In this document: piece after piece, positions 20,151 through 42,439 of the stretch | How the letters are laid out: each line of letters begins with the position of its first letter | Numbering within the stretch: position 1 is the stretch's first letter | From: Paeniglutamicibacter sp. Y32M11 | GTDB lineage: Bacteria; Actinomycetota; Actinomycetes; Actinomycetales; Micrococcaceae | Length of the DNA: 64,000 bases | Assembly (NCBI RefSeq): GCF_019285735.1 | Contig: NZ_CP079107.1 | Span: 3,224,001 to 3,288,000, forward strand | Reading direction: 5' to 3' | The notes under the pieces: model-generated | What the model was told of the DNA's origin: nothing | Database searches by the model: none | What the model saw: only the letters and a program-made list of their open reading frames with translations | Program-made: the position numbers and the translations under genes

Positions 20151-21025
20151 CCGATCTCGATGTAGTAATCCCTTGTTTCAACATGCAAGCACTTGTTGCC
20201 CGTGCCATCGAAAGCGCCCACATAGCTGGAGCAAATAGAATAATTGTTGTTGATGATGGTTCAGCTGATGATTCGGCGATGATCGCCGAAAAGCATGGTG
20301 CAACTGTCATTCGTCAGGCAAATAGCGGTGCAGCAGCAGCGCGTCGTACGGGCGCAAAGGGATCAACTGCCACTTATCTGATTTTTTTGGACGCTGATGA
20401 CCAATTGCTAGCGCCAGGAGTCAAAGAATCTCTCCTGCTACTTGAGTCCAACGTTGGTTCGCCAGCCGTCGGTGGAGCCGTAGTCGGTGTAATGCCGAAT
20501 GGCAAAACGACGAGGCTCAAGAGCCATTACTCAAACTCAATTTCAACTGCTGATCTTCTGTCCAAGGGATTCGGTCCGTGGCCACCGGCTGCTGCGGTTG
20601 TTCGACGATTAGATTACCTCAAGGCAGAAAACCAATTTCCCAATAAGCTAACAACTGACTACGCAGAAGACTTTGAGATGTTTATTCGTCTGTCGATGAT
20701 CGGCAAAATACTTAAACATGACGTTCCTGCTGCGAAATATAGAATGTTCGATGGAAAATCCAGTAAAGACTACCTTAAGCCGATAATGGCCAAGGAGCGA
20801 ATTGTCGAATATTATGGTCAAGCTTTGAAGTTACCTCACACGGTTATGTCTGGTGTTGATATCCGGCTTGCTTCACATACTCGAGCGATCCGAACAATGA
20901 TTGCACGCGCTGAGTACGGGAAACTAATCCTACTTATTGTCAAAAGTCTTGCTTTTGATCCGAAAATTAATTTTCTCGGAGTGAAAAAGGGTGTTCAGAA
21001 ATTCATTAAAAGAGATGAAAAATGA
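20147..21025 (+). CDS. Glycosyltransferase family 2
   Basis: A 292-residue GT-A glycosyltransferase with LDVVIPCFNMQALVARAIES, VVDDGSADDSAMIA, NSGAAAARRTGAKG and the metal-binding FLDADDQ. The acceptor-side TDYAEDFEMFIRL carries the likely catalytic Asp/Glu. It starts with GTG in a GTGA overlap with the preceding stop and ends in an ATGA overlap with the flippase, so all three are translationally coupled. Donor sugar unknown. Confidence 0.88.
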   Translation: MTDLDVVIPCFNMQALVARAIESAHIAGANRIIVVDDGSADDSAMIAEKHGATVIRQANSGAAAARRTGAKGSTATYLIFLDADDQLLAPGVKESLLLLESNVGSPAVGGAVVGVMPNGKTTRLKSHYSNSISTADLLSKGFGPWPPAAAVVRRLDYLKAENQFPNKLTTDYAEDFEMFIRLSMIGKILKHDVPAAKYRMFDGKSSKDYLKPIMAKERIVEYYGQALKLPHTVMSGVDIRLASHTRAIRTMIARAEYGKLILLIVKSLAFDPKINFLGVKKGVQKFIKRDEK

Positions 21026-22359
21026 CTAAGACTCGATTCTATCGTAAGCTTAAAAGCAGAGCTAAAGAGATAGATCTTGGCTCAACGGCTAGCTACAAAG
21101 GGATCTCTTTAGCTTTCGGTCTTATTGCTAATCTTGGCGCAGTTGCGGTATTGAGTAACAAGTTTGGCGTTCATGAGTATGCCGCGTATTCGCTAATTGC
21201 ATCGCTCATCTATCTGTTGCCCTTCGCAGATCTTGGTTTAGGTGCAAGCGTTGTCAATGCCGTATCGGATCAACGTGAACGGACAATGTCTCAACGCGAT
21301 CTTTCACTCGTCCTGGGTCGAGTTCGGCTATTGCTCTCATTCGTCGGTTTCGTCCTAATCATTATCGCTGTGTTATTAACCATTTCAGGCGGATGGGCCA
21401 TAGCGTTCGGCAGCTTGGGTGCAAATGACGGCATTTCCACTGCCGCGATGGTTACGGTCGCATCGATTGGTTTGGCCCTCCCTCTTGGGTTGGGCAGCCG
21501 AATTCTGCAAGGATTAGGACTCGTCAGGGAAACAGTCCGGGCATCGCTTTTCGCACCGATAGCAACTGTCACGCTGTTCCTTACATTCTTAATGATTAAC
21601 GCTCCAGCAGCATTTTATCTTTGTGTACCAGCAGTTGGGTATTTCATCGTCGCAGTTGTCACCTACGTTCGTGCCATCAAGCTGCTAGACATCGACCGAG
21701 CCAGAATCCCAGATATTTTACTCGAAAAACTCTCTGAAAAGCGGTCCATCGCCAAGTCTGCCGTTCCTTTTTTCATTATTTCGATTGGATTAGCTTTTGG
21801 TCTTCAGAGCCATAGGCTGCTACTCGCGCAACTGGGAACTCCTACTGACGTGGCTACGTACTCCCTTGTTGCCCAGTTTACGGGCCCTATCCTTGCCATA
21901 CTCACAGTCGCCGCTCAGAATCTTTGGTCTAGATACCGAAAATCAGGAATGACAGACCAATCCAGCTACCTGAGAGATATTTCTCTTTTCTCGCTACTCG
22001 GTATCTTCGGAAGCGTTATCTTGCTTGTCGCCATTCCGATGGCTTCGAAATTTCTGACAGCCGGAAACGTCCTCGTACCTGATCTCTTACTCTTCGGCGC
22101 CTCGATGTATATTGTTATTGTTGCGATTCACCAACCGGGCGCTATGCTCCTTAACGATCATTCCGGACTACGCTTTCAGGCTCTGCTGGTTGTTTCGGTT
22201 AGCTCAATTTCGTTTTATTTGCTATTTATTTACATTCCAAGCTTTGGAGCTTCCTTCACTTATCTCTGCTCTGCGATTGTAATGATATTTGTACAAGTTA
22301 TTCCAACAGTTTTAATTTCTTTAAAGAGATTACGAAATGCGGAACAAGCCTTTCGCTAA
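21022..22359 (+). CDS. Wzx-type oligosaccharide flippase
   Basis: A 445-residue integral membrane protein with about 12 hydrophobic helices and short loops, starting with the usual 'A-S-Y-K-G-I-S-L-A-F-G-L' first helix of the MATE-like polysaccharide flippases. It should flip the undecaprenyl-linked EPS repeat unit to the outside of the membrane. It closes the first half of the cluster. The expected partner, a Wzy polymerase, is not found in the window. The IS21-family insertion begins 90 bases downstream. Confidence 0.85.
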   Translation: MTKTRFYRKLKSRAKEIDLGSTASYKGISLAFGLIANLGAVAVLSNKFGVHEYAAYSLIASLIYLLPFADLGLGASVVNAVSDQRERTMSQRDLSLVLGRVRLLLSFVGFVLIIIAVLLTISGGWAIAFGSLGANDGISTAAMVTVASIGLALPLGLGSRILQGLGLVRETVRASLFAPIATVTLFLTFLMINAPAAFYLCVPAVGYFIVAVVTYVRAIKLLDIDRARIPDILLEKLSEKRSIAKSAVPFFIISIGLAFGLQSHRLLLAQLGTPTDVATYSLVAQFTGPILAILTVAAQNLWSRYRKSGMTDQSSYLRDISLFSLLGIFGSVILLVAIPMASKFLTAGNVLVPDLLLFGASMYIVIVAIHQPGAMLLNDHSGLRFQALLVVSVSSISFYLLFIYIPSFGASFTYLCSAIVMIFVQVIPTVLISLKRLRNAEQAFR

Positions 22360-22593
22360 TTCCAATTTTGTATATATAAACTATTTTTTTATAAAGGCTT
22401 AATTTTCTATATACTCAGGGGTCCAGACAGGTCCGAACATTGACAATGTGCTGAATAGCCTCAGGAGGTAGTGCTGTTCTGACGACTTGGTAGAGCTGTT
22501 CTGGATACACGGTAGTGCTCGTAACCTTCTCATGATGCTCTGATCGATTCGCCACACAACACGGTGCGGCGAATCGATCAGAGGAGAAATACC

Positions 22594-23693
22594 TTGGTGG
22601 ATTATCAAGCCATCATGTCTTTGATGTTCAAAGGCCGAACCTACATGGAAATCACCACGTCCGTAGGTTGCTCACATCGGGATGTCTCGACCGTGAAGAA
22701 AGCCATCACTACTGCCGGCATCACTGCGGAGCGCTTTGCCTCCCCGGGGAAGGTCCCTCAAAATCCGGTCGGTCAAAGGGATGCCGAGGCATGCTCGGGA
22801 TAACGAAATCCTCGGAATAATCTTTCTAATCCCGAATTCGGGATTACCGGGACAAGGCACATGTCGAGCGAATGGTTCAAGCGGTGGAGAGCCGAGTCAT
22901 CGGTTATCTCGCCTCCCAGACCTGGACCTCGTTCGAGGAACTCAACGACGTCGTGCAGGAACGACTGGTGGATCTGAACGAACAACTACGCCGGGTCAAC
23001 GGGACCACGCGGCAAGAAGTCTTTGACGCCGAGGAAGCAGCGTTGCTACAGCCCCTGCCGGATCATCCGTTTGAATCGGTGGAATATAAGCAGTTGAAGG
23101 TCGGGCGGAACTATCACGTCACCAGCGACTACCAACACTATTCGGTGCCGTATGAGTTGGCCGGCAAGATTCTTTCAGTCCGGATCACCGCAACCACCGT
23201 GAGCATCTTTGACGGGCAAGCCAAAGTTTGTGAGCACCCGCGCAAGCTCGGGCGCCGGGGTCAATATTCCTCGGAGTTATCGCATGCTCCCAAGCATCAC
23301 CAGCAGGTTCAGGGGTTGTGGTCCAGGGAGTGGTTCTTGAACCGTGCCCGGAATTATGGACCGGCTACCGTGCAAGTCATCACGCAGATTTTGGACCGCA
23401 GCAAGATTGAAGCCCAAGCCTTCTTGGCGTGCCGCAATATCCTCTCGGAGTTGGGCGGGAAGAAATCCTCGTTGGAGGAAGCGTGCCAGGAAATGCTGAA
23501 CATCAACGGGTATCCGAACTACACCTCGCTCAAACGAGTGATGGCGACCTTGGCCGCGGCCAAGGCCCAACCGGCTGCGGCAGCTCCGGCAGCGCAGAAC
23601 GTGAAGAATCTGAAGGACGTCCAGAACCTGCCCGGAGTGTTTGTTCGCGATGCGGCGCACTACAAGGGGTTCGGTGGTTCCCATGCTGAATAG
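22594..23693 (+). pseudogene. istA transposase with catalytic core deleted
   Basis: The first frame (TTG 22594, preceded by GAGGAGAAA, to the stop at 22803) encodes the helix-turn-helix start MVDYQAIMSLMFKGRTYMEI and ATTAGITAERFA. The next in-frame match begins near 22847 with DKAHVERMVQAVESR and runs to 23693, the C-terminal DNA-contacting half. The intervening 200 or so residues, which hold the D-D-E catalytic triad, are missing. The transposase is therefore inactive, although the downstream istB is complete. Confidence 0.8.
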
Positions 23694-24450
23694 TGAAGAT
23701 CATCAGAAGATCAAGGATCTTCGACTCACCACGTTTGCCGACAAGTTCTTGGAGCTGACCAACGACGAAGCCAACGACACGTTGCTGCCGGAGGAAGTGT
23801 TCATGCAGGCGGTGAACCATTCTTTGGATTTGCGGCGGTCGAACAAGATCGACAAACTCATCAAACAGGCACGGTTTCCCCTACCGGGCGCATCGATTGC
23901 CGAGCTGCACTATGTTCCGGGTCGCAAGATCGATGAGGCACGGATGAAACGCTACGCGATGCATCAGTGGCGAGATGATCCGACGAACTTGTTGATCATC
24001 GCCCCCAGCGGTGGAGGCAAAACCTATATCGCCTGCGCGATAGGTATTGCTGCCTGCCATAGCGAGCACTCGGTGTTTTACACGCGGATGGACGTCCTGG
24101 CCAGAAAGCTGCTCATCGCACGGGGTGATAGCAAAGTTCATGATGCCCTGCTTGAAAAGTTACGGGAGGCAGATGTGTTGATCATTGACGACTTTTTGAC
24201 CGTGGGTATCGATCAGAACATTGCCAGTGACCTGTTCGGGGTTTTGGCTGATCGGGAGCATCGGTTGCCGACGGTGATTGTCAGCCAGACCGATCCGGCG
24301 TATTGGGTTCAGGTACTACCTGACCGCGTGGCTGGGGATTCGATTGTGAATCGGCTGGCCAATAACACCAGGTGGCTCATGTTGGGAGATACCGACATGC
24401 GCAAGCTCAAACATGGGAAAGCCCGGGACTCAGACAATTTTTGGGAATAG
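23683..24450 (+). CDS. istB: IstB-like ATP-binding protein of the IS21 element
   Basis: A 255-residue DnaC-like AAA+ ATPase that helps IstA capture target DNA. Walker A is APSGGGKTYIACAIG (about residues 106-120) and Walker B is ADVLIIDDF; the sensor region reads PTVIVSQTD. ATG 23683 overlaps the istA stop by 11 bases, the usual coupling in IS21. The frame is intact, but without a working IstA it is probably non-functional in this copy. Confidence 0.88.
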   Translation: MLNSEDHQKIKDLRLTTFADKFLELTNDEANDTLLPEEVFMQAVNHSLDLRRSNKIDKLIKQARFPLPGASIAELHYVPGRKIDEARMKRYAMHQWRDDPTNLLIIAPSGGGKTYIACAIGIAACHSEHSVFYTRMDVLARKLLIARGDSKVHDALLEKLREADVLIIDDFLTVGIDQNIASDLFGVLADREHRLPTVIVSQTDPAYWVQVLPDRVAGDSIVNRLANNTRWLMLGDTDMRKLKHGKARDSDNFWE

Positions 24451-24650
24451 ATTTGCAGTCCGTTCCTGAACAGCTAACTCCCGAGCCTTCCCCCTAAATA
24501 GTATTGGCCAAGAGCCCGTCATCGGTTCTTGGTCAATACGGAAAAACCTCTGGGCGCACTACCGCTTCGCCGGAAACGCACTACCGTCTGCCCGGAAAAT
24601 GCACTACCGAGTCGCCAGAACATCACTACCAAGAGACGCTATTTGGCACA

Positions 24651-25288
24651 ATGACGGTAACCCAGCAGTCCGATGTAGGCCCATTTACGGCTGGCATCTG
24701 CAGAGGTTGTCCGGGCCCTGTTCAGTCCGCTGGCTGTTGGCCAGCTCGAAGCGTGGAAAATACGCCTGTCCGGTACGGATGTTCCTCGTCAGTGGTGTGC
24801 AATCTCGCAGCATCGTGGATACCGAGTTCCTGGAATGGCGTACCACTTAGGCATATTTACCAAATACTGAATAGCGGGTGATTTTACTTCGGTTCTGTCG
24901 ACGTGAAAATGGAATACCGGGGTACCCGCCGGGTGCGTGGAATGGACATGCCACCCAGGCATATTTGTCACACCCAGAGGACGGAGTACGACTACCGCCA
25001 GAGGGAATTTATCAAATGTACCCCTAAGGGCTCTATTCTATAATATCGTTTATTTATTTTTTCTCCGTACTGTCAGAATATCATTCTCGGACTTTCGTGG
25101 GGCGACTTCGTGTTCGGTTGCGATCTTTTTAATACACTCCGGAATAAACCGAAGACTCAAAAGATTCATAAACGTACCCACGAGATCTGCATGCAACCGA
25201 AAATCAGATATGATTATTTCAACGTACCGTTACTGTCCGGGACATCCCTTGACTGATTTTTGTTTACATATACCTTCGGAGGAATGAT
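24651..25288. other. Gene-free stretch between IS21 remnant and gmd
   Basis: About 640 bases without a credible gene. Around 24795-24840 the sequence (TGTGCAATCTCGCAGCATCGTGGATAC) resembles the core found in the small elements at 31838-31882 and 36869-36920, so it is probably another eroded IS fragment. The last 100 AT-rich bases should carry the promoter of gmd. Confidence 0.4.
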
Positions 25289-26323
25289 TTGACGAAACGT
25301 GCACTAATCACGGGCATTACTGGACAGGATGGGTCTTACCTAGCGGAGCTGTTGCTAGGCAAAGGGTACGAAGTTCATGGTCTGATTCGTCGAGCTTCCA
25401 CTTTTAATACTGCAAGGATCGACCACATGTATGTCGACCCACACCAGTCCGATGCCAAGCTTTTCCTGCACTACGGTGACCTCTCTGACGGTGCCCGACT
25501 GGTTACACTTCTTTCTAAAATCAACCCCGACGAGGTTTACAACCTCGCTGCGCAATCGCATGTACGAGTTTCATTCGATGAGCCCGAGCACACGGGCAAC
25601 ACTACGGGTATCGGCACTGTACGGTTGCTCGAAGCCCTGCGAATGGCCAACGTGGATTCTCGCTTTTACCAAGCTTCTTCGTCGGAAATGTTCGGAGCGA
25701 CGCCACCGCCGCAGAACGAAGACACTCCCTTCTACCCTCGTTCGCCTTATGGCGCAGCGAAGGTATACAGCTATTGGATCACCAAGAACTATCGCGAAGC
25801 ATACGGTATGTATGCGGTCAACGGAATTCTGTTTAACCATGAATCCCCACGCCGGGGCGAAACCTTCGTCACTCGCAAGATTACGCGCGCGGTTGCAGCC
25901 ATCAAGGCGGGCAAGCAGGACGAACTTTTCATGGGCAACTTGGATGCCGTCCGTGATTGGGGCTACGCAGCGGAGTTCGTGGAAGGTATGTGGCGAATGC
26001 TTCAGGTCGACGAGCCAGAAGACTTTGTCTTGGCTACTAACGCCGGTTACTCGGTGCGCGATTTCCTCCAGATTTCTTTTGAACACGCAGGACTTAACTG
26101 GGAAAACCATGTCCGTTTCGACGAACGCTACCTCCGCCCAACCGAAGTTGACGCTCTTATCGGTGACTACTCAAAAGCGGAAAAGAAACTAGGTTGGGTT
26201 CCAACTGTCAAGACTCCAGAACTTGCTCGCATCATGGTCGATGCTGACATTGAAGCTTTGAAGAATGCCGGAAACTCATGGATTGACACGGTCAACCTTG
26301 CTAGCTGGAAGGTTCCTGCCTAA
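25289..26323 (+). CDS. gmd: GDP-mannose 4,6-dehydratase
   Basis: A 344-residue short-chain-dehydrogenase-type enzyme converting GDP-D-mannose to GDP-4-keto-6-deoxy-D-mannose, the first step to GDP-L-fucose. NADP binding is shown by [19 protein letters not shown], the catalytic Thr/Glu region by QASSSEMFG, and the Tyr-Lys pair by [24 protein letters not shown] is characteristic of Gmd. It starts with TTG at 25289, five bases after CGGAGGA (25277-25283); no in-frame ATG fits. The next gene starts directly after its stop, so the two form an operon. Confidence 0.95.
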
Positions 26324-27295
26324 GTGGAGGCCTCAGAATTCACCCCGCGACCACTTGACCGTTCGGCAAAAATCTACGTCGCCGGGCACCGAGGACTCGT
26401 AGGTTCTGCTATTTGGCGCAAACTCGAAGCCGAAGGTTTTAGGAATATCATTGGACGAAGCTCTTCCGAGCTGGATCTAAAGGACCGCGGAGCAGTTTTT
26501 GACTTCTTCGAATCTGAGAAGCCAGAGTATGTTGTTCTTGCAGCTGCCAAAGTAGGTGGAATCTTAGCAAACAACACTTACCCAGCTGATTTCTTGAGCG
26601 AGAATTTGCAGATCCAAGTCAACACCATGGACGCAGCACTCGTAAACGATGTTGAACGGTTGCTCTTCTTGGGTTCCTCATGTATCTATCCCCAGATGGC
26701 TCCGCAGCCGCTGAAGGAAGAATATCTACTGACGGGTCACCTAGAACCTACAAATGATTCTTACGCAATAGCAAAGATTGCCGGCATACTTCAAGTCCAG
26801 GCAATTCGCCGTCAGCATGACAAGTCTTGGATCTCTGCAATGCCTACGAATCTCTATGGACCAGGGGACAATTTCTCTCCTCAGGGATCCCATGTTCTGC
26901 CTGCCCTTATCCGCCGATATGACGAAGCAGTCCAAAACGGTGCGACTTCTGTCACGAACTGGGGCAGCGGAACTCCACTGCGAGAATTTCTCCACGTTGA
27001 TGACATGGCTTCCGCGTGCCTATTCCTCTTGGAAAACTACGATGGCCCAGATCAAGTTAATGTTGGTGTTGGGTCGGATGTCACTATCAAGGAACTTTCC
27101 GAAATCGTGGCACGTTCTGTCGGCTACAAAGGTGCGATGGAATGGGACTCGACAAAGCCCGATGGGACTCCACGCAAGCTTATGGACATTTCAAAACTTG
27201 CAGAAGCAGGGTGGACAGCCCAGATCGGGCTATGTGAAGGAATTCAACAGACCGTCGATTGGTTCCGCGCCAATCAAGGTACTTTTCGCAGTTAG
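26324..27295 (+). CDS. fcl: GDP-L-fucose synthase
   Basis: A 323-residue epimerase/reductase that converts GDP-4-keto-6-deoxymannose to GDP-L-fucose with NADPH. Features are IYVAGHRGLVGSAIWR, AAAKVGGILANNTYPADF, FLGSSCIYP, the SYAIAKIAG Tyr-Lys pair and LREFLHVDDMA. The GTG at 26324 directly follows the gmd stop codon. With gmd it makes the fucose donor for the EPS. A small hairpin lies downstream before the next gene. Confidence 0.94.
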   Translation: MEASEFTPRPLDRSAKIYVAGHRGLVGSAIWRKLEAEGFRNIIGRSSSELDLKDRGAVFDFFESEKPEYVVLAAAKVGGILANNTYPADFLSENLQIQVNTMDAALVNDVERLLFLGSSCIYPQMAPQPLKEEYLLTGHLEPTNDSYAIAKIAGILQVQAIRRQHDKSWISAMPTNLYGPGDNFSPQGSHVLPALIRRYDEAVQNGATSVTNWGSGTPLREFLHVDDMASACLFLLENYDGPDQVNVGVGSDVTIKELSEIVARSVGYKGAMEWDSTKPDGTPRKLMDISKLAEAGWTAQIGLCEGIQQTVDWFRANQGTFRS

Positions 27296-27353
27296 CTCTT
27301 AGAGCGGAAATGGTTGGCTTCATCCCCGTTTCAAACATCATTCGTTAGGTCCG

Positions 27354-27387
27354 CTGCCAGTACGTATGCGGTTATGCGCACTGGCAG
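27354..27387. repeat. Short inverted repeat between fcl and ugd
   Basis: CTGCCAGT (27354-27361) pairs with ACTGGCAG (27380-27387), with more partial pairing inside the loop (TATGCG/ATGCGCA). There is no T tail. It may be an attenuator or a processing site rather than a terminator. Confidence 0.3.
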
Positions 27388-27417
27388 TCAGCCGGTGTAC
27401 TTTTCACGGGAGTTAAA

Positions 27418-28776
27418 GTGTCACAACGCATTGCGGTCATCGGTATGGGCTATTTGGGTGCCACCCATGCGGCCTGTATGGCAGAACTTGGCTTTGAAGT
27501 TATTGGCCTAGATGTTGACCAAACCAAAATAGATAGTCTCTCCCGCGGTGAACTTCCTTTTCACGAACCGGGCCTTCCAGAACTACTGCGCAAGCATGTT
27601 TCCAATGGTTTGCTCCGGTTCACCACTTCCTACGAAGAAGTAGGCGCATGGGCAGACATACACTTCATTGGCGTGGGGACACCACAGACCCCCGGTGATA
27701 ACGCAGCGGATCTTACTTATGTTGATGCAGCGACGCTGTCACTCGCGAAGCACATCTCCAAGGATGCCTTCATCATCGGAAAGTCAACTGTTCCTGTAGG
27801 CACGGCACGTCGTCTGAAGCACCTAGTGGCGAGTAACAAAAAGCCCCAAGTTTCGATCGGATTTGCTTGGAATCCGGAATTTCTTCGCGAGGGTTTCGCA
27901 GTCAAGGACACTCTTCACCCTGACCGTCTAGTGGTCGGTGTCGATGATGAACGGACTGAAAATGTCCTTCGGAGTATCTATGCTGCGGCCCTCGAAAACG
28001 ATACACCCTTTATTTCAACTGATTTCGAAACTGCTGAATTGGTAAAGGTTGCTGCCAATGCTTTCCTGGCTACGAAAATCTCATTCATCAACGCATTTTC
28101 AGAGATTACCGAAACTGTTGGCGGTGACATCCGGACCCTAGCTGATGCGATTGGTCATGACGTGAGAATTGGGCGGCGTTTCCTTAATGCTGGTGTCGGC
28201 TTTGGAGGTGGATGTTTGCCCAAAGACATTCGAGCATTGCAAGCCCGAGTTGGCGAACTTGGTTTGGAACGGAGCATGCGTTTTCTATCAGAAGTTGACG
28301 CGATCAACTTACGCCGCCGAGACAGGGTGGTTTACCTGGCAGAGGAGATGATAGGCGATTTTTCTGGAAAGAAAATAGCCATCTTGGGCGTCACATTCAA
28401 GCCAGATAGTGACGATGTCAGGGATTCCCCTGCACTCGACGTGGCAATTCGGCTTTTCAGTTCGGGTGCTGAAGTCAGCGTTTTTGACCCTCAAGGCAAC
28501 GTGAATGCGGCGAAACGCTTTCCCCGCTTAAAATACGTTGACTCAACGGTTCAGGCCGTGGAAGATGCCGACTTGGTGGTTTTGCTCACAGAGTGGGCAG
28601 AATTTAGGAATTTAATGCCACAGGATATTCAGGAGTTGGTCGCGAAACGGAAGATCATTGATGCACGCAATGTATTGGACGTTGGAATCTGGCAAGGGAG
28701 CGCCTGGCAGATTGCGGCGCTTGGTCACAAGTTTGATTCAATTTTAGTATCAGACGCTGAAATGACTATGTCATAA
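27418..28776 (+). CDS. ugd: UDP-glucose 6-dehydrogenase
   Basis: A 452-residue NAD-dependent enzyme oxidising UDP-glucose to UDP-glucuronic acid. The N-terminal Rossmann fold reads IAVIGMGYLGATHAACM, the linker VKVAANAFLATKISFINAF is typical, and the catalytic Cys is in FGGGCLPKDIRAL (about residue 262). The C-terminal UDP-binding domain begins GVTFKPDSDDVRDSPA. It starts with GTG, ten bases after GGGAG. It should supply the uronic acid of the polymer. Some homologues are switched on by BY-kinase phosphorylation, and such a kinase occurs at 37467-39053. Confidence 0.94.
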   Translation: MSQRIAVIGMGYLGATHAACMAELGFEVIGLDVDQTKIDSLSRGELPFHEPGLPELLRKHVSNGLLRFTTSYEEVGAWADIHFIGVGTPQTPGDNAADLTYVDAATLSLAKHISKDAFIIGKSTVPVGTARRLKHLVASNKKPQVSIGFAWNPEFLREGFAVKDTLHPDRLVVGVDDERTENVLRSIYAAALENDTPFISTDFETAELVKVAANAFLATKISFINAFSEITETVGGDIRTLADAIGHDVRIGRRFLNAGVGFGGGCLPKDIRALQARVGELGLERSMRFLSEVDAINLRRRDRVVYLAEEMIGDFSGKKIAILGVTFKPDSDDVRDSPALDVAIRLFSSGAEVSVFDPQGNVNAAKRFPRLKYVDSTVQAVEDADLVVLLTEWAEFRNLMPQDIQELVAKRKIIDARNVLDVGIWQGSAWQIAALGHKFDSILVSDAEMTMS

Positions 28777-28828
28777 ACTGGCTTGCAGGGAAACTAGTCG
28801 AATTCGATATTCTTGGGGGATCATTACA

Positions 28829-30271
28829 TTGCGTATAATGAATCAAGACTGGAAAATAGGTATTCCTAGATTCTTGGGTCTGGTCGACGGAGCTTGCATC
28901 GTCGTCTCGATGGTGGCTGCCCAGTTCTCGAGATTTGGACTAGGCGGTAATCCCTCATTGGATGGCACTGTGTCTACGAGTTACTGGCTCGTTACTGCGT
29001 TGCTGAGCGTCGTATGGTGGCTTGCATTGCAAATCTGGGGGTCGCGAGATCCTAAGATTTTTGGTACTGGAACGGAGGAATACAAACGAGTTGCATCTGC
29101 GTCTCTATATTTCTTCGGTTCTATCGCCATTGTTTCCTACGCACTAAATATCCCAACTGCAAGGGGTTACATAGGTGTTGCATTGCCTCTGGGTATTATC
29201 CTACTGATTGCAGCCCGTTGGCTCTGCAGACGTCGGTTGGTCCGGCACAGAATGAACCACCGATTTACGCGCAGACTGATGCTAGTTGGCAGTCCAGCAG
29301 CCGTCGAACACTTACATCAAAGCCTTATTAGTGAACCTGGCGCTGGCTACCTCCCCGTTGCCGCCATTCTTCCTGGTTACAAGTTGTCATCGCCTTCGGG
29401 CAGGGAATTGGAATTACCGATAGCAAGCGTGGGTACTCATCTTTCAGAGGTTTTGAATGCCATTGAAGCTTACGGTGTCGACGCCATCGCAATCTCAGGT
29501 GGAATCACATTGAAGCCTCGCGTTATTCGGCAACTCGGCTGGGAACTGCAGGAACGCAAGATCAGCATGATAATGGCGCCGGCCCTCACCGACATTGCCG
29601 GACCACGAATCCATACACAGCCGATTGCCGGTTTGCCATTGATCCATGTTTCAACTCCGGAGTTGGAAGGATGGCAGACATTCACCAAACGCGTCTTTGA
29701 CTGCGTTGGTGCCGCTTTGGCGCTGATTTTGCTCTCTCCCGTTTTCGTGATCGTTGCTCTACTAATCAAGAAGGATGGTGCCGGACCGGTATTTTTTCAT
29801 CAGGAACGTATCGGCAGAAACAGCGTACCTTTTAGGATGCATAAGTTTCGTTCCATGGTTGTGGATGCTGAAGCTCGTCTGAACGATCTCCAAGAGGTCA
29901 GCGAAGGCAATGGCATACTTTTTAAGATGAAAGCCGATCCACGTATTACTAAAATTGGTGCGTTTATACGCCGCTACAGCATCGACGAACTTCCCCAGTT
30001 GTGGAACGTGGTCTGTGGTGAAATGAGTATGGTTGGTCCCCGTCCGCCGCTCGAAAGCGAAGTAGACACCTACGAGGAGTACGTCTTACGACGACTCAAG
30101 GTTAAGCCGGGTCTTACTGGTCTTTGGCAAGTCAGCGGACGTTCGGATCTTTCTTGGGATGACAGCGTTCGTCTGGATTTGTACTACGTGGAGAACTGGT
30201 CATTGATGCAAGACCTAATTATCCTATTCAGGACAGCCAAAGCTGTCGTTGGCAAAGACGGCGCTTATTAG
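28829..30271 (+). CDS. Initiating sugar-1-phosphate transferase (WcaJ/WbaP type)
   Basis: A 480-residue membrane protein that loads the first sugar phosphate onto undecaprenyl phosphate. Four to five N-terminal helices (15-130) and a central Rossmann-like region (about 150-270) are followed by one more helix (295-315) and the bacterial sugar transferase domain: FHQERIGRNSVPFRMHKFRSM, IRRYSIDELPQLWNVV, MSMVGPRPPLESEV and KPGLTGLWQVSGRS. It starts with TTG 28829 after TGGGGGA; ATG 28838 is possible. It is the last EPS gene before the IS-rich zone. Glucose-1-P or galactose-1-P specificity is not decided by sequence. Confidence 0.92.
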   Translation: MRIMNQDWKIGIPRFLGLVDGACIVVSMVAAQFSRFGLGGNPSLDGTVSTSYWLVTALLSVVWWLALQIWGSRDPKIFGTGTEEYKRVASASLYFFGSIAIVSYALNIPTARGYIGVALPLGIILLIAARWLCRRRLVRHRMNHRFTRRLMLVGSPAAVEHLHQSLISEPGAGYLPVAAILPGYKLSSPSGRELELPIASVGTHLSEVLNAIEAYGVDAIAISGGITLKPRVIRQLGWELQERKISMIMAPALTDIAGPRIHTQPIAGLPLIHVSTPELEGWQTFTKRVFDCVGAALALILLSPVFVIVALLIKKDGAGPVFFHQERIGRNSVPFRMHKFRSMVVDAEARLNDLQEVSEGNGILFKMKADPRITKIGAFIRRYSIDELPQLWNVVCGEMSMVGPRPPLESEVDTYEEYVLRRLKVKPGLTGLWQVSGRSDLSWDDSVRLDLYYVENWSLMQDLIILFRTAKAVVGKDGAY

Positions 30272-32687: not shown

Positions 32688-33629
32688 ATGAACACTTCCG
32701 ATTCCGGGCTTTTGCCTGTTGCACACCTCTATCCCCATGAGGCCGTCGAACTCGCCGCAGCACTCGTTGCATCAATTGCAGCTGAAGCCGGTCTTCAGTG
32801 TCTATTCATAAAAGGCCCTGCCGCCGTATCAATCAAGGCAAGACCACCTCGGGCTTCGTCCGATATCGACGTTCTTGCGCTTCCAGAAGAAATAGACATA
32901 TTTATTAATAGGCTAAAGATTCATGGTTGGTTAATTAGACCTTCCGAAGATGGGTTGGGAATTCCAAGACACTCACACACTCTCTATCATGAGAATTGGC
33001 CGTCCGACATTGATCTCCATTTTCGATTTCCAGGGTTAGAGGCGAAACCGGAAGAAGCGTTTGCGGCGTTGAATAAACAATCAACAATTCATTACTTTGC
33101 TGGATTTAAAGCATTCATACCATCATTCCCTGGACATGTCGTAATTCAGATTACTCATGCACTGAGAAATCTTCCGAGCACTGAGATCTACCATTCAAAA
33201 AACGCACATTCTGACTATGATTTCTTAAGATTCTCGGATAAGTTGCCAAAATGGCCGATAATGAAAGAAATTCTTGATGGCACTGACTCATGGGCGGCAA
33301 TGAGACCGTTCCTAGAAGATGCCTACCCATCTTATCTAGAGGCCCTCTCCATCCACCCACCCTCCGAAGATTGGATATCTCGGACGACGGTGGGCTACGG
33401 AAGTACATTCAAGCTCATGGAGTTTCTAAGAGCTCCTTGGAGGCGAAAGCTGATCGTTCTCTATCGCGTATTCATCCCGAGTCGCGAAGGCCTTGCCGTC
33501 AGTAATATTTCAATACTCAACGCTAACCGTAAAACATATAATCGAATCCTGACTAAACATTGGATACATCTTTTGAAACGTGCACCATTTGCGATTTTTA
33601 TTACAGCAAAAAGATTGCGCGGAAGATAA
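32688..33629 (+). CDS. Nucleotidyltransferase-like protein (NTP_transf_5 type)
   Basis: A 313-residue protein with the layout of the uncharacterised nucleotidyltransferases found beside lasso-peptide, PqqD and EPS genes. IKGPAAVSIKARPPRASSDIDVL (residues 41-63) supplies the KGPA turn and the paired Asp of the G-S/D-x-D site, and SDIDLHF (about 104-110) the third acidic position. A helical C-terminal half ends in a basic tail. It is flanked by IS remnants and has AT-rich codon use like the EPS genes. It lies on the same side as the HPr-kinase-like and PqqD genes 6-8 kb downstream, with which this family often occurs, so it may belong to the same system. Confidence 0.75.
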   Translation: MNTSDSGLLPVAHLYPHEAVELAAALVASIAAEAGLQCLFIKGPAAVSIKARPPRASSDIDVLALPEEIDIFINRLKIHGWLIRPSEDGLGIPRHSHTLYHENWPSDIDLHFRFPGLEAKPEEAFAALNKQSTIHYFAGFKAFIPSFPGHVVIQITHALRNLPSTEIYHSKNAHSDYDFLRFSDKLPKWPIMKEILDGTDSWAAMRPFLEDAYPSYLEALSIHPPSEDWISRTTVGYGSTFKLMEFLRAPWRRKLIVLYRVFIPSREGLAVSNISILNANRKTYNRILTKHWIHLLKRAPFAIFITAKRLRGR

Positions 33630-37466: not shown

Positions 37467-39053
37467 CTACCGATTTCGACGTAACCGCCGAAATTCCGGG
37501 TCTCCGCCGATGTGAGTATCTGGAAAAGCTGAAGCTGGCGTTGCCTCCGAATTCGGATAGGGCGATGCCCTCGGCGGCGTTGGTTTCTTCAATCTGCTGC
37601 TGGGTTTGCCAGATTTGATCGAATCTTCTTCTGTATTCGAGTAGTAATATTTACCGTAATAGCCATACTGTGCCGCTCCGACGCCCTTGGTTGGGACTTG
37701 GTTCAGGATTGCACCCAAGATATTTGCATCAACTTTTCGTAGGTTGTGCAATGCTTTGTTGACTTCGTCACTGGTTGTATTCCCTGCGCGGACAGCAACG
37801 AGAATACCGTCGGCAGCTGTGCTGAGTACTGCAGCGTCTGTGACGGGAAGAAGTGGTGGTGCGTCAACGAGTACCACTGCATCCCGCGCCAACTCCTTCA
37901 GCAGAAGTTTCATGGCCTTTGAGCCGAGCAACTCGGAAGGGTTAGGTGGAATACGGCCCGAGCCAAGTAACTGTAAATTGGGAACCGGACCATAGGGTTG
38001 AAGGACATCTTCAATATCTGCACTGTGGCTCAACACGTCAGTAAGTCCAGCTCCCTCAATTAGATCAAACAACTTAGTTTGAACCGGGCGACGCAGGTCA
38101 GCATCGACCAATACGACGTTCCTACCTGTGGATGCAATGGCTACTGCCAGATTTGCAGTGACCGAGGATTTACCTTCGCCTGGAACGGATGAGGTCATGA
38201 CGATGATCCGGGGCGGGTTATCTACGTCAATGTAATTAAGATTTGTTCGCAATTCACGTAGTGCCTCCGAGAATGCGTGTGCTGCGCGGTCACCGTGGTC
38301 GATAGCACCGGTTTCCACAACTGCGCGTTGTGCCATGAGGCGCTTGTCTTCCGGAATTGTTCCAACAACACTAAGTCCAAGCAATTCCAGCGCCTCAGCC
38401 GAACGAATTCGGCGGTCCAGATGATTGCGAATCATCGCGTAAGCGGCACCGATCGCCAGTCCAACTAGGCCTCCAAGAGCTAATGCAAGCTTGGTGTTGG
38501 GCGAGACAGGTGTAGATGGCAAAACTGCTTGCCCCAACGGGTGCAAGTTCACGGCCGATACGCGTTCAGCGCCATCGACTGATGCCGATTCCAGTTCCTT
38601 GATCTGATCTGCGAGGGCAACGACCCATGCATTCGCCAGTCCGCGCGCCTCCTCCGCGCCTTCCGAAGAAGCCGTTATACGGATTTCAGCGGTACCGGTT
38701 GGTACCGTTACTTCTATGCGTCCAAGCAAGGAATCAGCGGTCTCGTCGAGTTTCATGTCGTTGATGACTCGGTCCGCAACTGGGCGGGTAGTAGCGATGC
38801 TTTTGTAGCCAACTGCTTTCGACTTCGCCAAACTGTCGCCGGCCAAGGCATTTCCGATATTTTCCGAGTCTCCTGCGATGACCAAACCCGAAGAAGAAGC
38901 GGCGTAAATGCGTGGCTGAAGCAAAGTCCAGGCGAAGGTAAGCAGTAGGCAAATTAAGAAAATTGCTACGATTCCGCGCCAAAAACTGAATAAGACTCTT
39001 ACGTAGTATCGAAGGTCAGCGCCAGACTCAGAATTTATCTCGGTCGGTTCCAC
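37467..39053 (-). CDS. Wzz chain-length regulator fused to BY-type tyrosine autokinase
   Basis: A 528-residue inner-membrane protein. Residues 15-50 and 185-207 are the two membrane helices of a Wzz domain (FWRGIVAIFLICLLLTFAW; LALALGGLVGLAIGAAYAMI) that frame a short external segment. The cytoplasmic kinase follows, with Walker A SSVPGEGKSS (about 288-297), Walker A' VLVDADLRRP and Walker B VLVDAPP. A Tyr cluster (QYGYYGKYYYSN, about 460-472) is the expected autophosphorylation site. Such proteins set polymer length and export. Start is GTG after AGGGAG. The matching phosphatase is encoded at 39565-40155 on the other strand. Confidence 0.94.
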   Translation of the reverse strand: MEPTEINSESGADLRYYVRVLFSFWRGIVAIFLICLLLTFAWTLLQPRIYAASSSGLVIAGDSENIGNALAGDSLAKSKAVGYKSIATTRPVADRVINDMKLDETADSLLGRIEVTVPTGTAEIRITASSEGAEEARGLANAWVVALADQIKELESASVDGAERVSAVNLHPLGQAVLPSTPVSPNTKLALALGGLVGLAIGAAYAMIRNHLDRRIRSAEALELLGLSVVGTIPEDKRLMAQRAVVETGAIDHGDRAAHAFSEALRELRTNLNYIDVDNPPRIIVMTSSVPGEGKSSVTANLAVAIASTGRNVVLVDADLRRPVQTKLFDLIEGAGLTDVLSHSADIEDVLQPYGPVPNLQLLGSGRIPPNPSELLGSKAMKLLLKELARDAVVLVDAPPLLPVTDAAVLSTAADGILVAVRAGNTTSDEVNKALHNLRKVDANILGAILNQVPTKGVGAAQYGYYGKYYYSNTEEDSIKSGKPSSRLKKPTPPRASPYPNSEATPASAFPDTHIGGDPEFRRLRRNR

Positions 39054-39219: not shown

Positions 39220-39510
39220 TCATTTGGGTGTGACTATCAGCCTTTGGGCCGCAAGCTGCTCCAAGAAGTTCCTTATTTGCGGTATTAAGATTTCTATCTC
39301 GATATCATAGTCAACAGATAACTTCAAGGCCATCGATGGCACTGAATCATATTGATCAAGAGCAGACCAAATTGCCGCACCGGATCCCGTAAGAACCACA
39401 GGTTGCGAGGCATCCAAATTTAGAATAGCGAAACGGCTATCCTCTTCGGAACTAACAACGGCCAAACGCGACGATTTAATCCAACGCAATTCTTCGGGTT
39501 TCGAGGTCAT
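39220..39510 (-). CDS. PqqD-family small protein
   Basis: A 96-residue protein with the PqqD fold: a strand-rich first half (RLAVVSSEEDSRFAILNLDASQPVVLTGSGAAIWSAL) and helical second half (YDIEIEILIPQIRNFLEQLAAQRLIV). The segment 'L-x-G-x-G-A-A-I-W' is the family core. PqqD domains hold leader peptides of modified peptides for their processing enzymes. It diverges from the phosphatase gene 54 bases away, and a second PqqD domain ends the kinase-like protein at 40219-41358. No precursor peptide is evident next to it. Confidence 0.8.
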   Translation of the reverse strand: MTSKPEELRWIKSSRLAVVSSEEDSRFAILNLDASQPVVLTGSGAAIWSALDQYDSVPSMALKLSVDYDIEIEILIPQIRNFLEQLAAQRLIVTPK

Positions 39511-39564
39511 GTCATCAATCTTAAGTCAGCCTTTGCCAACTGCGTAATCCCGTATGATCGAAGC

Positions 39565-40155
39565 ATGATCTCACTATTGATGGTGTGTACCGGGAATATT
39601 TGTCGTTCTGCCTATGCCGAACGACTATTGCAGCATCAACTCGATGAAATTGCACCCGGTGCGTTTGTAATCCGGAGTGCCGGGACTCAGGCCCTCGTGG
39701 GTCATCCCATGGAACCATCCGCCGCGCAACGGCTGACTCTTAAGAACGGCAGCGACATGGCTTTCATGGCGCGGCAACTAAATGAAAACACTCTGGCCAG
39801 TGTCGACTTTGTGTTGGCTATGACGGAAGAACATCGAACGGCTGTTGTGGAATTATCGCCAAAGATGCTCAAGCGCTCATACACAATTCGAGAGTTTGCT
39901 GCGGTCATAGATGCAATTCATGACGATCAGAACATCGAATTACCGCGCGGTAATAGCCCGGAGACGCGTACCGAGCGTTGGACAGAGCTTCGTGCCAACG
40001 CGGTGTTGAAGCGCCACGAGGCCCGAACGCACCTTGACGGAAAATTGGACATCGAGGATCCGTACCGCCGAGGAGATACAGCCTTCGACGCCATGGTTAT
40101 GGATCTGGCTCCGCTATTGGACAGAATCGCAAGATTCGAGATCTCACACTCTTAA
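39565..40155 (+). CDS. Low-molecular-weight protein tyrosine phosphatase
   Basis: A 196-residue phosphatase. The P-loop CTGNICRS (Cys8 to Arg14) is the C-x5-R-S signature, placed right after the first strand MISLLMV as in all LMW-PTPs. The DPY-type general acid is present late as DIEDPYRRGD. The protein is about 40 residues longer than Wzb because of an insert around 105-150. It should dephosphorylate the BY-kinase and so restart EPS export cycles. It lies between two PqqD-domain genes. Confidence 0.92.
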   Translation: MISLLMVCTGNICRSAYAERLLQHQLDEIAPGAFVIRSAGTQALVGHPMEPSAAQRLTLKNGSDMAFMARQLNENTLASVDFVLAMTEEHRTAVVELSPKMLKRSYTIREFAAVIDAIHDDQNIELPRGNSPETRTERWTELRANAVLKRHEARTHLDGKLDIEDPYRRGDTAFDAMVMDLAPLLDRIARFEISHS

Positions 40156-40218
40156 AAATTTCAAGTTCACGGCTTTCGAATTCGGACTCCACGGCCTTCA
40201 TCCGGCGAAATAGGAACA

Positions 40219-41358
40219 ATGAAAATTTCTGAAAATTTCATCCATTCTCACGCAAGCGAGGAATTGATCGAATCAGATAGCACTCACTCTGTGCTTATTG
40301 ACGTCATCAGGACGACAGTTCAAATTAGTGGTCTTTCTGCACTCGAGGCCAACATAGTTCTTCACACTTGGGCTCGTTGTGACGCCCGATTGGCCATCGA
40401 TTCTGAAGCGACGCAGGATTTCGAGACACTGAACCGTCCAACGTCCTTAAGTTGGACTCAATTTCATGAGAACCTTGTAAGTTGGGCAACGCTCAAAGCT
40501 ATAGAATCCGGTCGTGGTGAACTATTCATGTTTCATGCGGCCGCCCTAAGCTGCCCTGACACCGGCGCTACAATTATCCTGACTGCTGAGTCGGGAACCG
40601 GAAAGACGACTGCGACACTAAATCTCGCCAAGGCACTGGGCTACGTCACAGATGAAACAGCTGCGTTCGGCCTTGATGGCAGGCTACACCCGTATGCCAA
40701 GCCTCTGTCCTTGCTGCCAGCCAGCAAGCAGCGGCCCAAGACTCAATATTCGCCCGAAGATCTCAATCTCATACACCCTAACGTTGAGCCTTATGTTGCT
40801 GCGATAGCTATTCTTGACCGTGATCGATCCGGCGAAAGAATAACACCGACATTGGAGACGCTACCGATCGCAGAAGCCTTGAGCCAGGTTATTCCTCAGA
40901 TTTCTTCCCTTGCGCACCTTGACCGGGGACTAGTTCAGCTTTGCCAACAGATAGATAGTCTCGGCGGTGTTATTCGTCTGCACTATAGCGAAGCTTCGGA
41001 TCTTACAACCGTGGTAAATGATCTCTTGGCCTCGCAGTGGCTGCACCAGGTAGGCGAATGGACGGCCTTGGAAGTAGGAATGTCTAACACCGCTGCGCCG
41101 ACCGCCGGGTATTACCGACGAGTTCAGGTCGATGATGCGATCTTGCTAAGTAACGAGATTGCGATTCTCATTAACGAGGAGTATTTTGTGCTTTCCGGTA
41201 TCGGCCCAGCAATATGGCAGTCACTATCCAGCTGGAAGTCTAGTGCCGAATTACTAGATGAGATCGTGGCGGAGCATGGCCGGCCATCTGACGCCGAACT
41301 CATGTTAAACAATCAGTTGGCCGTCCTCACAGATCAAGGAATCGTCGAACGCTCCTGA
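40219..41358 (+). CDS. HPr-kinase-like protein fused to a C-terminal PqqD domain
   Basis: A 379-residue predicted cytosolic protein. The central domain matches HPr kinase/phosphorylase relatives: HAAAL before the P-loop LTAESGTGKTTATLNLAKAL (123-140), then YVTDETAAF and PYAKPLSLLP, the order seen in HprK-related kinases. The last 80 residues (about 297-379, DDAILLSNEIAILINEEYFVLSGIGPAIWQSL) form a PqqD-like domain. HPr itself is not encoded nearby. In lasso-peptide and HPr-rel systems such kinases act on peptides or unknown partners. It is read in the same direction as the phosphatase, 63 bases apart, so the two are likely cotranscribed. Confidence 0.8.
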   Translation: MKISENFIHSHASEELIESDSTHSVLIDVIRTTVQISGLSALEANIVLHTWARCDARLAIDSEATQDFETLNRPTSLSWTQFHENLVSWATLKAIESGRGELFMFHAAALSCPDTGATIILTAESGTGKTTATLNLAKALGYVTDETAAFGLDGRLHPYAKPLSLLPASKQRPKTQYSPEDLNLIHPNVEPYVAAIAILDRDRSGERITPTLETLPIAEALSQVIPQISSLAHLDRGLVQLCQQIDSLGGVIRLHYSEASDLTTVVNDLLASQWLHQVGEWTALEVGMSNTAAPTAGYYRRVQVDDAILLSNEIAILINEEYFVLSGIGPAIWQSLSSWKSSAELLDEIVAEHGRPSDAELMLNNQLAVLTDQGIVERS

Positions 41359-41488: not shown

Positions 41489-42439
41489 ATGGTAGCAACG
41501 CGGTTCATATCCCCGTCCAAATTCATGCTGAGCGAACCATTACCGCTGATTCCTCCGATATCGTTGGAATCTAGGTACACGAATCCTCTGGAGTCCAACC
41601 AAGGTCAAGAAATTTTGACTTGGGGAACTCATTTCGGTGAGACAACCATCTACCACTCCACCGTTCCAACCGGAACGTTCCACAAAATAGGATATAGACA
41701 ATTCGATAATTTGTTTCTAATGTTCATTGATAGTGGATCTGGTACTATAGTTGTAAATGACTCAGGTAAATTGGAGTCGCATAAATTCGCAGTAGGTACA
41801 ATTCTTGCATTCGACGATACGTGCAGTTTTGAACTTGTTCAAAAAATTGATTCTATAATTACTGGAATTCGAATACCAATTCAGACAATTAAAGAATTCG
41901 GACTATGTTGCACATTTGAAATAATAGGCACAGGCAATCCTTCGGTCTTAGCGCGGGCTGCGCGTGATTTTGTTGCGTCAATAATAGTTCAAAAATCTGA
42001 CTTATCCTCGATTTCGTCTTATTTTATAGAAAATTTGCTGCAGGAAATGATCTCTGGAATAATTCTCGAAAATAACGGTAATACCGTTAATCAAAATTCC
42101 CGTAAAAGCATCTACGACCAGGCGATGTCATTTATAGCTGCGTCCGCAAATGATCCTGAATTAAACACGGCCAATTTAGCGCGTGAACTATCCATCTCTG
42201 TGCGTCAGTTGCAAAGAGAATTCAAAAAAAATAATCTCACCGTGGCTCAAACCATCAAGAATCAACGAATCGATCTGGCAACTAGATTACTGAGCAACTC
42301 AAAAATGAACGTCCTTTCCCTCGACGAAGTTGCCACTTTCTCAGGTTTTACGTCGTTGATTCAGATGCGACGTGCACTCAGCGAGAGAGGATTGCGACAT
42401 CCCACCCGAATTCGCGCCGACGCTCTCAATTCCCTCTGA
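41489..42439 (+). CDS. AraC-family transcriptional regulator
   Basis: A 316-residue DNA-binding protein. The first 190 residues form a beta-rich sensor domain of the AraC-binding-like type without a recognisable ligand motif. Residues about 205-312 form the two helix-turn-helix units: TANLARELSISVRQLQREFK and LDEVATFSGFTSLIQMRRALSERG, ending RHPTRIR. Codon use is AT-rich. It sits between the kinase-like/PqqD gene and a Tat-exported protein and may control either. No operator was recognised. Confidence 0.88.
   Translation: MVATRFISPSKFMLSEPLPLIPPISLESRYTNPLESNQGQEILTWGTHFGETTIYHSTVPTGTFHKIGYRQFDNLFLMFIDSGSGTIVVNDSGKLESHKFAVGTILAFDDTCSFELVQKIDSIITGIRIPIQTIKEFGLCCTFEIIGTGNPSVLARAARDFVASIIVQKSDLSSISSYFIENLLQEMISGIILENNGNTVNQNSRKSIYDQAMSFIAASANDPELNTANLARELSISVRQLQREFKKNNLTVAQTIKNQRIDLATRLLSNSKMNVLSLDEVATFSGFTSLIQMRRALSERGLRHPTRIRADALNSL

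Follow-up and report, generated by a model that had tools for sequence, protein, structure and literature searches.

In Paeniglutamicibacter sp. Y32M11, a 64,000-nucleotide stretch of contig NZ_CP079107.1 (positions 3,224,001 to 3,288,000; hereafter the window) carries a gene for an HprK-like kinase next to genes for a free PqqD-like domain and a low-molecular-weight phosphatase (LMWP). Across genomes, this kinase is linked to an NTP_transf_5 nucleotidyltransferase and to secreted proteins sharing an N-terminal signal (hereafter clients), and the linkage is strongly supported. The genes probably encode a leader-guided protein-modification system of Actinomycetota that tags surface proteins before export, and the clients very probably belong to it. 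A first-pass annotation had placed the three genes side by side at 39220-41358, near a bacterial tyrosine kinase (BY-kinase); coordinates and strands were confirmed. It had seen no clear precursor, but a precursor class exists, represented in the window by the gene at 42630-43292, and it is a family of secreted proteins rather than a small peptide, although an additional small-peptide precursor may exist. The genes it grouped do belong together, although the interval is incomplete: the NTP_transf_5 gene and an accessory signal peptidase gene lie outside it (Table 1).

Co-occurrence of the parts across genomes

Profiles of the parts, including the PqqD-like RRE (recognition element of ribosomally synthesized and post-translationally modified peptides, RiPPs), were searched across genomes, and the NTP_transf_5 and signal proteins were found to track the kinase. 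A single-sequence query detected kinase relatives in 83 of the 295 genomes of the window's own family. The signal profile A2, built from the N-terminal signal, was searched in the same genomes and matched in 89. Both were present in 81 genomes, the kinase alone in 2, the signal alone in 8, and neither in 204 (p = 2e-60; this and the following p-value are descriptive, being computed as if genomes were independent, which they are not). By genus, the kinase and signal sets, read from lists, were the same 14 of 32 genera. Among 248 genomes of the order, where a kinase profile found relatives in 46, the corresponding counts were 40, 6, 11, and 191 (p = 1e-29), and 6 of the 11 signal-only hits were weak (E above 1e-6). 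Order genomes outside the window's family contributed 32 with both, 6 with the kinase only, and 10 with the signal only. The kinase/signal tables were cross-read from printed genome lists.

The nucleotidyltransferase followed the kinase closely. Among 149 family genomes, 40 had both, 1 the kinase only, 1 NTP_transf_5 only, and 107 neither. The lone kinase genome without an NTP_transf_5 match is 82% complete, and the lone NTP_transf_5 hit without a kinase is a broken remnant in G061 (L187:9210-9779), a genome that keeps a signal protein; this looks like decay of the system. A signal peptidase with six cysteines, separated from the housekeeping enzyme by score (at least 297 versus at most 171 bits), was present together with the kinase in 24 of these genomes; 17 had the kinase only, 2 the peptidase only, and 106 neither. 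A free RRE was counted in 34 of the 41 kinase genomes, hits inside the kinase being excluded by position. Two of these counts relied on weak hits (G036 and G124, E 3.6e-5 to 8.8e-5) accepted for their position beside NTP_transf_5 or BY-kinase, and two equally weak hits in kinase-negative genomes (G017 and G129) were set aside. Eight genomes of the window's genus were tested for kinase, NTP_transf_5, RRE, and six-cysteine peptidase, and all four parts were found in the same two, G000 and G094; a third, G074, had the signal alone.

The BY-kinase served as a control. It was present in all 41 kinase genomes and also in 55 of the 108 kinase-negative ones, so that it accompanies the system but does not predict it. 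This bears on an alternative in which the module regulates exopolysaccharide (EPS) synthesis, BY-kinase and LMWP cycling tyrosine phosphorylation, the PqqD domains binding the BY-kinase tail, the HprK-like kinase tuning the process, and the secreted proteins being passengers. The constant presence of the BY-kinase agrees with it, as does its position: among 126 non-redundant loci, 61 had a BY-kinase no more than 2 kb from the kinase, and the same number had a signal protein that close. A fusion of LMWP and kinase in one locus (L154) points the same way. However, the BY-kinase follows the kinase far less closely than NTP_transf_5 and the signal proteins do, and we consider this alternative unlikely. 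Binding of PqqD to the BY-kinase tail, as the annotation had proposed, is also disfavored, since the motif [WY]xxPx[LVIFA] was absent from the window's BY-kinase and from 95 of 97 neighborhood BY-kinases; PqqD could bind it in another mode.

The N-terminal signal of the clients

Clients share the layout RR-x7-W-x2-P-x8-P-x4-S. In the window client these positions are RR16-17, W25, P28, I30, P37, and S42, with the W codon at 42702 and the S42 codon at 42753. It was the sole signal match in its own genome among the 24 candidates scored out of 34 (E = 5.7e-17). A DNA pattern for the signal gave three off-target matches in this genome, and profiles were used instead. From 110 signal-profile hits, 2 not fitting the RR..WxxP frame and 9 repeats were dropped, leaving 98-99 distinct sequences. 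In 98 distinct neighborhood sequences, in which RR, W, and the first P were fixed by construction, Ser occurred at W+17 in 93, Pro at W+12 in 96, and one of [LVIFA] at W+5 in 96. The Ser thus stands 17 residues past the Trp, just beyond an A-x-A region.

Two features overlap in this signal. The WxxP segment fits [Y/W]xxPx[LVIFA], the RRE-binding motif of the leaders of lasso peptides and of linear polyphosphorylated peptides (LPPs), known from crystal structures and mutants (PMC13381572). The twin arginine at residues 16-17, the hydrophobic region, and the A-rich A-x-A region of the window client have the layout of a substrate of twin-arginine translocation (Tat). Other Tat-like N-termini in the neighborhoods carried the RRE motif in only 3 of 67 cases, one of them beside a PqqD gene. 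The signal could be an ordinary lineage-typical Tat signal whose association with the kinase reflects shared descent or hitch-hiking in EPS islands, as the frequent presence of client genes and kinase in one locus and the existence of signal-only genomes would allow. But the rarity of the motif in other Tat-like N-termini, the scarcity of signal matches in kinase-negative genomes of this family (8 of 212), and the finding of the pairing in further families and classes, where the gene order differs, make this very unlikely.

The mature parts of the clients have a median of 144 aa, the longest reaching 501 aa. Searches of Pfam and NCBIfam up to E = 1 gave no family for the window client. Of ten clients scanned, one had DUF5122 propeller repeats above the cut-off and one had weak Ig-like matches below it; the remaining ones matched no meaningful family. 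Family genomes with the signal had 1 to 16 signal hits, whereas kinase hits numbered one or two per genome. Many clients with one enzyme form the pattern of a sorting or modification signal, not that of a single precursor.

Two variations in the clients were observed. One genus of the order has client genes in tandem next to the kinase, in arrays of three to five or more (L153-L157, from G403, G320, G455, G429, and G364). In Arthrobacter and Pseudarthrobacter, the twin arginine of clients encoded upstream of the free RRE (loci among L075-L095) is preceded by an additional N-terminal block, GAQLSEVLNAEV...EEGGF, which was not seen in the other listed clients.

Putative leader-binding domains and kinase

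The annotation had regarded PqqD domains as carriers of leader peptides, and the PqqD domains of the window do look like leader-binding domains. The free RRE scored above the Pfam cut-off (Table 1). As a single sequence searched against the PDB, it gave only three matches up to E = 1, namely TbiB1, 9x8z (LppB), and 9x90 (PbaB1), with E values of 0.011-0.17. An 18-member profile raised these to E = 5.7e-12, 4.5e-7, and 1e-9, respectively, and also matched PqqD domains of the pyrroloquinoline quinone pathway. Phe82 is conserved in 17 of the 18 members and Leu86 in all 18. In the reported WxxP complex, Gln79 of PbaB1 contacts the leader Trp, and LppB has Asp70 at that place for Tyr (PMC13381572). 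By our own alignment around Phe82, a Gln of the window's free RRE corresponds to PbaB1 Gln79, and the 18 members have Asp (7), Gln (5), His (3), or other residues (3) there.

The kinase is HprK-like with a fused RRE, an assignment that is weak by single sequence. The window protein alone reached 23.4 bits with TIGR04352 (cut-off 200), and its C-terminal PqqD domain 19.2 bits with PF05402 (cut-off 23.4). Because the TIGR04352 score is below the cut-off, HprK likeness rests on the P-loop, His, and Asp of the family alignment and on family-level matches; by these the domain identity given in the annotation, and its likening of the kinase to lasso-tailoring kinases, held up. Three elements were invariant in a 17-member alignment: the P-loop (S125-G126..G128-K129-T130-T131), His106, and D145-E146-T147. 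The final 60 residues of the window kinase match leader-binding RRE structures; the C-terminal part of the family profile found 9x8z (LppB, E = 2.5e-6) and 5v1u (TbiB1, E = 1.7e-4). In the PDB search with the kinase profile, the P-loop part matched many unrelated ATPases, and the 60 matches listed, of 212, included no HprK chain.

In two loci (L154:6024-7415 and L157:5768-7180) an HprK-like kinase is fused to an N-terminal LMWP-like domain, and this fusion ties the LMWP to the kinase. The fused domain of L154, a distant relative, scored 27.6 bits with PF01451 (cut-off 23.2). By eye, the catalytic Cys of the fused domain is replaced in both, as in a pseudophosphatase, and the apparent kinase RRE is a separate downstream gene of 91-102 aa. 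The window's own LMWP, which is Wzb/Stp1-like, has an intact C-x5-R loop by eye.

NTP_transf_5 protein and signal peptidase

Alone, the window's NTP_transf_5 protein scored 23.3 bits with PF14907, under the cut-off of 31.2. Its assignment rests on the 17-member family alignment, with invariant K42-G43, D59-x-D61, and D109-x-H111, and on a deep-branching relative in L192 that reached 104.4 bits with PF14907.

The signal peptidase is of the bacterial type. TIGR02227 (bacterial) lay far above its cut-off (Table 1), whereas TIGR02228 (archaeal) gave 22.8 bits against 51.85 and the SipW model 14.7 against 190; PF10502 matched with 107.5 bits. A 16-member alignment showed Ser45 and Lys118 as well as six invariant Cys, and the cysteines suggest action outside the cytoplasm. 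A MauE membrane protein with a thioredoxin-like second half (L031:6233-7246, PF07291 71.2 bits, and 14 other loci) recurs in 15 of 140 neighborhoods, in some near the six-cysteine signal peptidase, and might supply disulfides.

Gene neighborhoods within and beyond the family

The annotation had expected a conserved neighborhood in other genomes, which was found: besides the kinase relatives in 83 of 295 family genomes, a recurrent set, read from 20-kb neighborhoods and from the 79 loci described below, comprises the free RRE, BY-kinase, LMWP, NTP_transf_5, signal peptidase, AraC regulator, and signal-bearing secreted proteins. Many Arthrobacter and Pseudarthrobacter loci have the order secreted protein, free RRE, kinase-RRE, BY-kinase, NTP_transf_5. 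Of 79 loci, 43 had a signal protein no more than 2 kb from the kinase; these 43 belong to four named actinobacterial families, and 23 of them are from Arthrobacter or Pseudarthrobacter. These 79 loci, gathered by the kinase profile alone (best 80 of 168 relatives), are the ones quoted because L153-L172 had been picked knowing the positions of signal hits. In L031-L070, mostly top kinase hits and genera chosen for spread, the count was 11 of 40.

The pairing extends beyond the order in altered form. In a phylum sample of 149 genomes, the kinase was found in 8 and the signal in 3; a strong kinase and the signal occurred together only in G000 and G310. The six other genomes, with weak kinase hits, gave seven deep-branching loci, and five of the seven had an RR...WxxP protein, four directly beside the kinase and one (L193) about 5.5 kb away. 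In L192, two such proteins flank kinase, PqqD, and NTP_transf_5. The RR-W spacing of these clients is longer and variable, as in GRRDFLKRTAVVGGMVWAAPLIQSAPAFAA, encoded next to kinase and PqqD in L189; an arginine-rich antisense match in L190 was dropped. The kinase-only order genomes G316 and G408, of four examined, likewise had a long-spaced RR...WxxP neighbor. The variable spacing indicates that the Arg pair and WxxP can be uncoupled, which would be expected of one element for export and another for RRE docking.

No MsbA-like exporter was found among the window genes given to Pfam, and none was recurrent near the kinase. A motif scan found ATP-binding cassette (ABC) ATPases above 480 aa, one each, in 20 of 140 loci; of seven large ABC proteins scanned, six had two ABC domains (ABC-F or importer-like). 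The seventh, an exporter-like Agromyces protein of 603 aa (L143:10083-11891) encoded some 6 kb away from the kinase, has just one ABC domain, at the C-terminus. A contig titled Stenotrophomonas maltophilia P13 (L113) carries an actinobacterial cassette in the gene order of the Microbacterium loci L124 and L132, and is probably a contaminant.

Proposed mechanism

From the parts, motif, co-occurrence, and adjacency described above, we infer the following order of binding, modification, and export. Clients would be made in the cytoplasm with a two-part N-terminal signal, a twin-arginine export signal holding W-x-x-P-x-[IVL] in its hydrophobic stretch, followed by a signal-peptidase site and the near-invariant Ser at W+17. 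The free RRE and the kinase-fused RRE would first bind W-x-x-P-x-[IVL]; that an RRE binds the WxxP segment is likely. The HprK-like kinase would then phosphorylate the Ser, a step in which we have moderate confidence. The NTP_transf_5 protein could next add a further group, a hexose or a nucleotide, to the phospho-Ser; that it acts there is tentative, at slightly below an even chance. The RRE would finally let go of the signal and the client would be exported, with Tat the likely route. A signal peptidase, often of the six-cysteine type, would cut within the A-rich A-x-A region, leaving the modified Ser as residue 1-2 of the mature protein, and the modified surface protein would end up in the EPS matrix. 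LMWP and BY-kinase, which are associated with the EPS locus, may serve the EPS side or reset the phosphorylation.

Several observations weigh against this proposal. The evidence behind it comes from sequence comparison. RRE binding and membrane insertion would compete for one stretch of the signal, which makes it necessary to assume a hand-over. The gathering profile included the Ser, Pro, and W+5 columns, and their conservation is not fully independent. The window client was not scored as a Tat signal by the NCBIfam model TIGR01409, nor was any of nine other clients scanned alongside it above the cut-off; among the deep-branching clients, two of five were (18.9 bits in L189 and 21.0 in L191; cut-off 16.7). 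The kinase family has an invariant Asp-Glu where, by our own mapping, Asp-Asp is described for lasso kinases (PMC9266682). The six-cysteine peptidase was absent from 17 of the 41 kinase genomes, and 67 of the 140 neighborhoods had no signal protein in view. Three of the eight kinase-negative family genomes with the signal (G266, G174, and G077) have 3-4 copies, and no kinase was found in seven 20-kb neighborhoods checked from signal-only genomes. Of the six kinase-only order genomes, four were examined with a relaxed pattern and two gained a plausible neighbor, leaving four unpaired; three of five relaxed matches (L043, L056, and L074) were dropped as not signal-like. Scoring covered only the first candidates per genome, 24 to 48 in signal searches and 6 to 13 in kinase searches, making absences and copy numbers inexact. 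For the nucleotidyltransferase step, deletion of lppN, an NTP transferase gene of the LPP pathway, caused no visible change in a heterologous host (PMC13381572), and in pseudomycoidin biosynthesis sugar addition by a host enzyme instead of PsmN was not excluded (PMC9266682).

Comparison with known pathways

The system would work like LPP and phosphorylated lasso pathways, which it resembles, with a different peptidase type, leader, and set of clients. LPPs are RiPPs of Bacillota (Popov et al. 2026), to which their authors restrict them (PMC13381572). The HprK-like LppK phosphorylates Ser3, 18 residues past the motif Tyr, and the unphosphorylated precursor is poorly cleaved by a signal-peptidase-like enzyme (PMC13381572). 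Both systems have a discrete RRE, an HprK-like kinase, an NTP transferase, and a leader peptidase of the signal-peptidase family; precursors or clients have a conserved N-terminus and a variable C-terminus and lie in polysaccharide loci, and a Ser stands 17-18 residues past the aromatic residue of [Y/W]xxPx[LVIFA]. In contrast, the motif here has Trp instead of Tyr and lies inside a twin-arginine export signal, the six-cysteine peptidase is of the bacterial type instead of the SipW/archaeal type, the kinase has its own RRE, no MsbA-like exporter recurs, and up to 16 clients were found per genome, some of them long and all in Actinomycetota. Clients, with WxxPx[IVL] and an A-rich hydrophobic region, fall within the wider [Y/W]xxPx[LVIFA] class but do not follow the LPP leader consensus YxxPxVLxHQxIxFETxxS. 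Because of the peptidase type, this leader, and the lack of a recurrent exporter, we did not file the system as LPP. A true LPP-type pathway, whose product would be a short N-terminal fragment or a linear peptide and in which long secreted proteins would be precursors or decoys, could account for the shared enzyme set, the polysaccharide loci, and the pattern of constant and variable termini, and LPP precursors of 35-200 aa overlap the client size range. It is nevertheless quite unlikely, given the length of the mature parts, the DUF5122 and weak Ig-like matches among ten clients, the bacterial-type peptidase, and the lack of a recurrent exporter near the kinase.

In paeninodin-type lasso pathways (PadeK/ThcoK, PsmK/PsmN), an HprK-like kinase acts on a precursor Ser with an NTP-transferase-like partner and an RRE whose leader has WxxP, and the Gln of the window RRE at the PbaB1 Gln79 position adds to this likeness. 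For pseudomycoidin, PsmK phosphorylates the Ser and PsmN is needed for hexoses on the phospho-Ser (PMC9266682). The lasso Ser, however, is at the C-terminus of a short peptide, and no lasso cyclase (C) or B2 protease was found among the window genes given to Pfam, a set smaller than all open reading frames. The HPr-rel-A system (name from the model titles; kinase TIGR04352, PqqD TIGR04353) shares the kinase-PqqD pairing, but the window proteins fall far below its cut-offs, with 23.4 bits against 200 and 14.8 against 35; the deep-branching kinase of L192 reached 91.1 bits with TIGR04352, also below the cut-off.

In PEP-CTERM/exosortase systems, one enzyme set handles many EPS-linked surface proteins with a common sorting signal. 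The system here differs in its N-terminal signal and in having a kinase and an NTP transferase as enzymes. A stronger form of our proposal, doubtful as a whole, is a sorting code in which a Tat-type signal with an RRE docking motif marks surface proteins for phosphorylation and then glycosylation or nucleotidylation of the future N-terminal Ser before export. The glycophosphate would join the protein to exopolysaccharide, and the RRE would also act as a Tat proofreading chaperone passing only modified protein, a role that we presume to be like that of redox enzyme maturation proteins. Such a code would mirror PEP-CTERM/exosortase at the N-terminus.

Small peptides of unclear role are the known setting of RRE-guided phosphorylation, which here, across Actinomycetota, appears to serve whole secreted proteins; a genome usually has a single kinase, and as many as 16 clients were found in one. 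If so, RiPP leader recognition, twin-arginine export, and exopolysaccharide assembly would be joined, the poorly annotated kinase, PqqD, and NTP_transf_5 genes would have named clients, unannotated surface proteins would gain a shared handle, and the purpose of LPP-type polyphosphorylation would become testable on whole proteins. The literature searches made, confined to open-licence papers, showed no RRE/PqqD system tied to a Tat signal or to Tat-type surface proteins, and no actinobacterial counterpart of LPP.

The locus in the window

The system parts are scattered across 30 kb of the window (Table 1). The EPS context given in the annotation was borne out by the Wzc-type BY-kinase and by an EPS locus of glycosyltransferases, a pyruvyltransferase, sugar-nucleotide enzymes, and a polyprenyl-phosphate sugar transferase, interrupted by an IS21-type pair.

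Table 1. Features of the system and its surroundings in the window
Feature	Position	Strand	Basis
Six-cysteine signal peptidase I, bacterial type; accessory	12949..13659	+	TIGR02227 120.7 bits (cut-off 47)
Exopolysaccharide locus; context	16139..30271	+	Pfam/NCBIfam matches of its genes
NTP_transf_5 (PF14907-like) nucleotidyltransferase; core part	32688..33629	+	Family alignment and co-occurrence
Wzc-type BY-kinase of the EPS locus; associated	37467..39053	-	TIGR01007 165 bits (cut-off 108.05)
PqqD-like free RRE domain	39220..39510	-	PF05402 36.2 bits (cut-off 23.4)
LMWP (Wzb/Stp1-like); associated	39565..40155	+	PF01451 85.5 bits (cut-off 23.2)
HprK-like kinase with C-terminal RRE; core part	40219..41358	+	Family alignment, profile search
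AraC-type regulator; possible regulator of the system	41489..42439	+	PF12833 39.5 bits
Client, secreted protein of 220 aa	42630..43292	+	N-terminal signal motif

Of 140 loci, 14 had a homologue of the AraC regulator, and in 12 of the 126 non-redundant loci one lay no more than 2 kb from the kinase. Two IS21-like pairs (22872-24450 and 34264-36541) were recognized in the EPS region by Mu-transpos_C_2, rve, and IstB_IS21 matches, and the second lies between the NTP_transf_5 and BY-kinase genes. The GC content is 47-51% at 16-22 kb and 38-42 kb versus 58-64% beyond 44 kb, which suggests an acquired island. In the congener G094, BY-kinase, RRE, LMWP, kinase, AraC regulator, and secreted protein follow the window's order, with a kinase identity of 54%.

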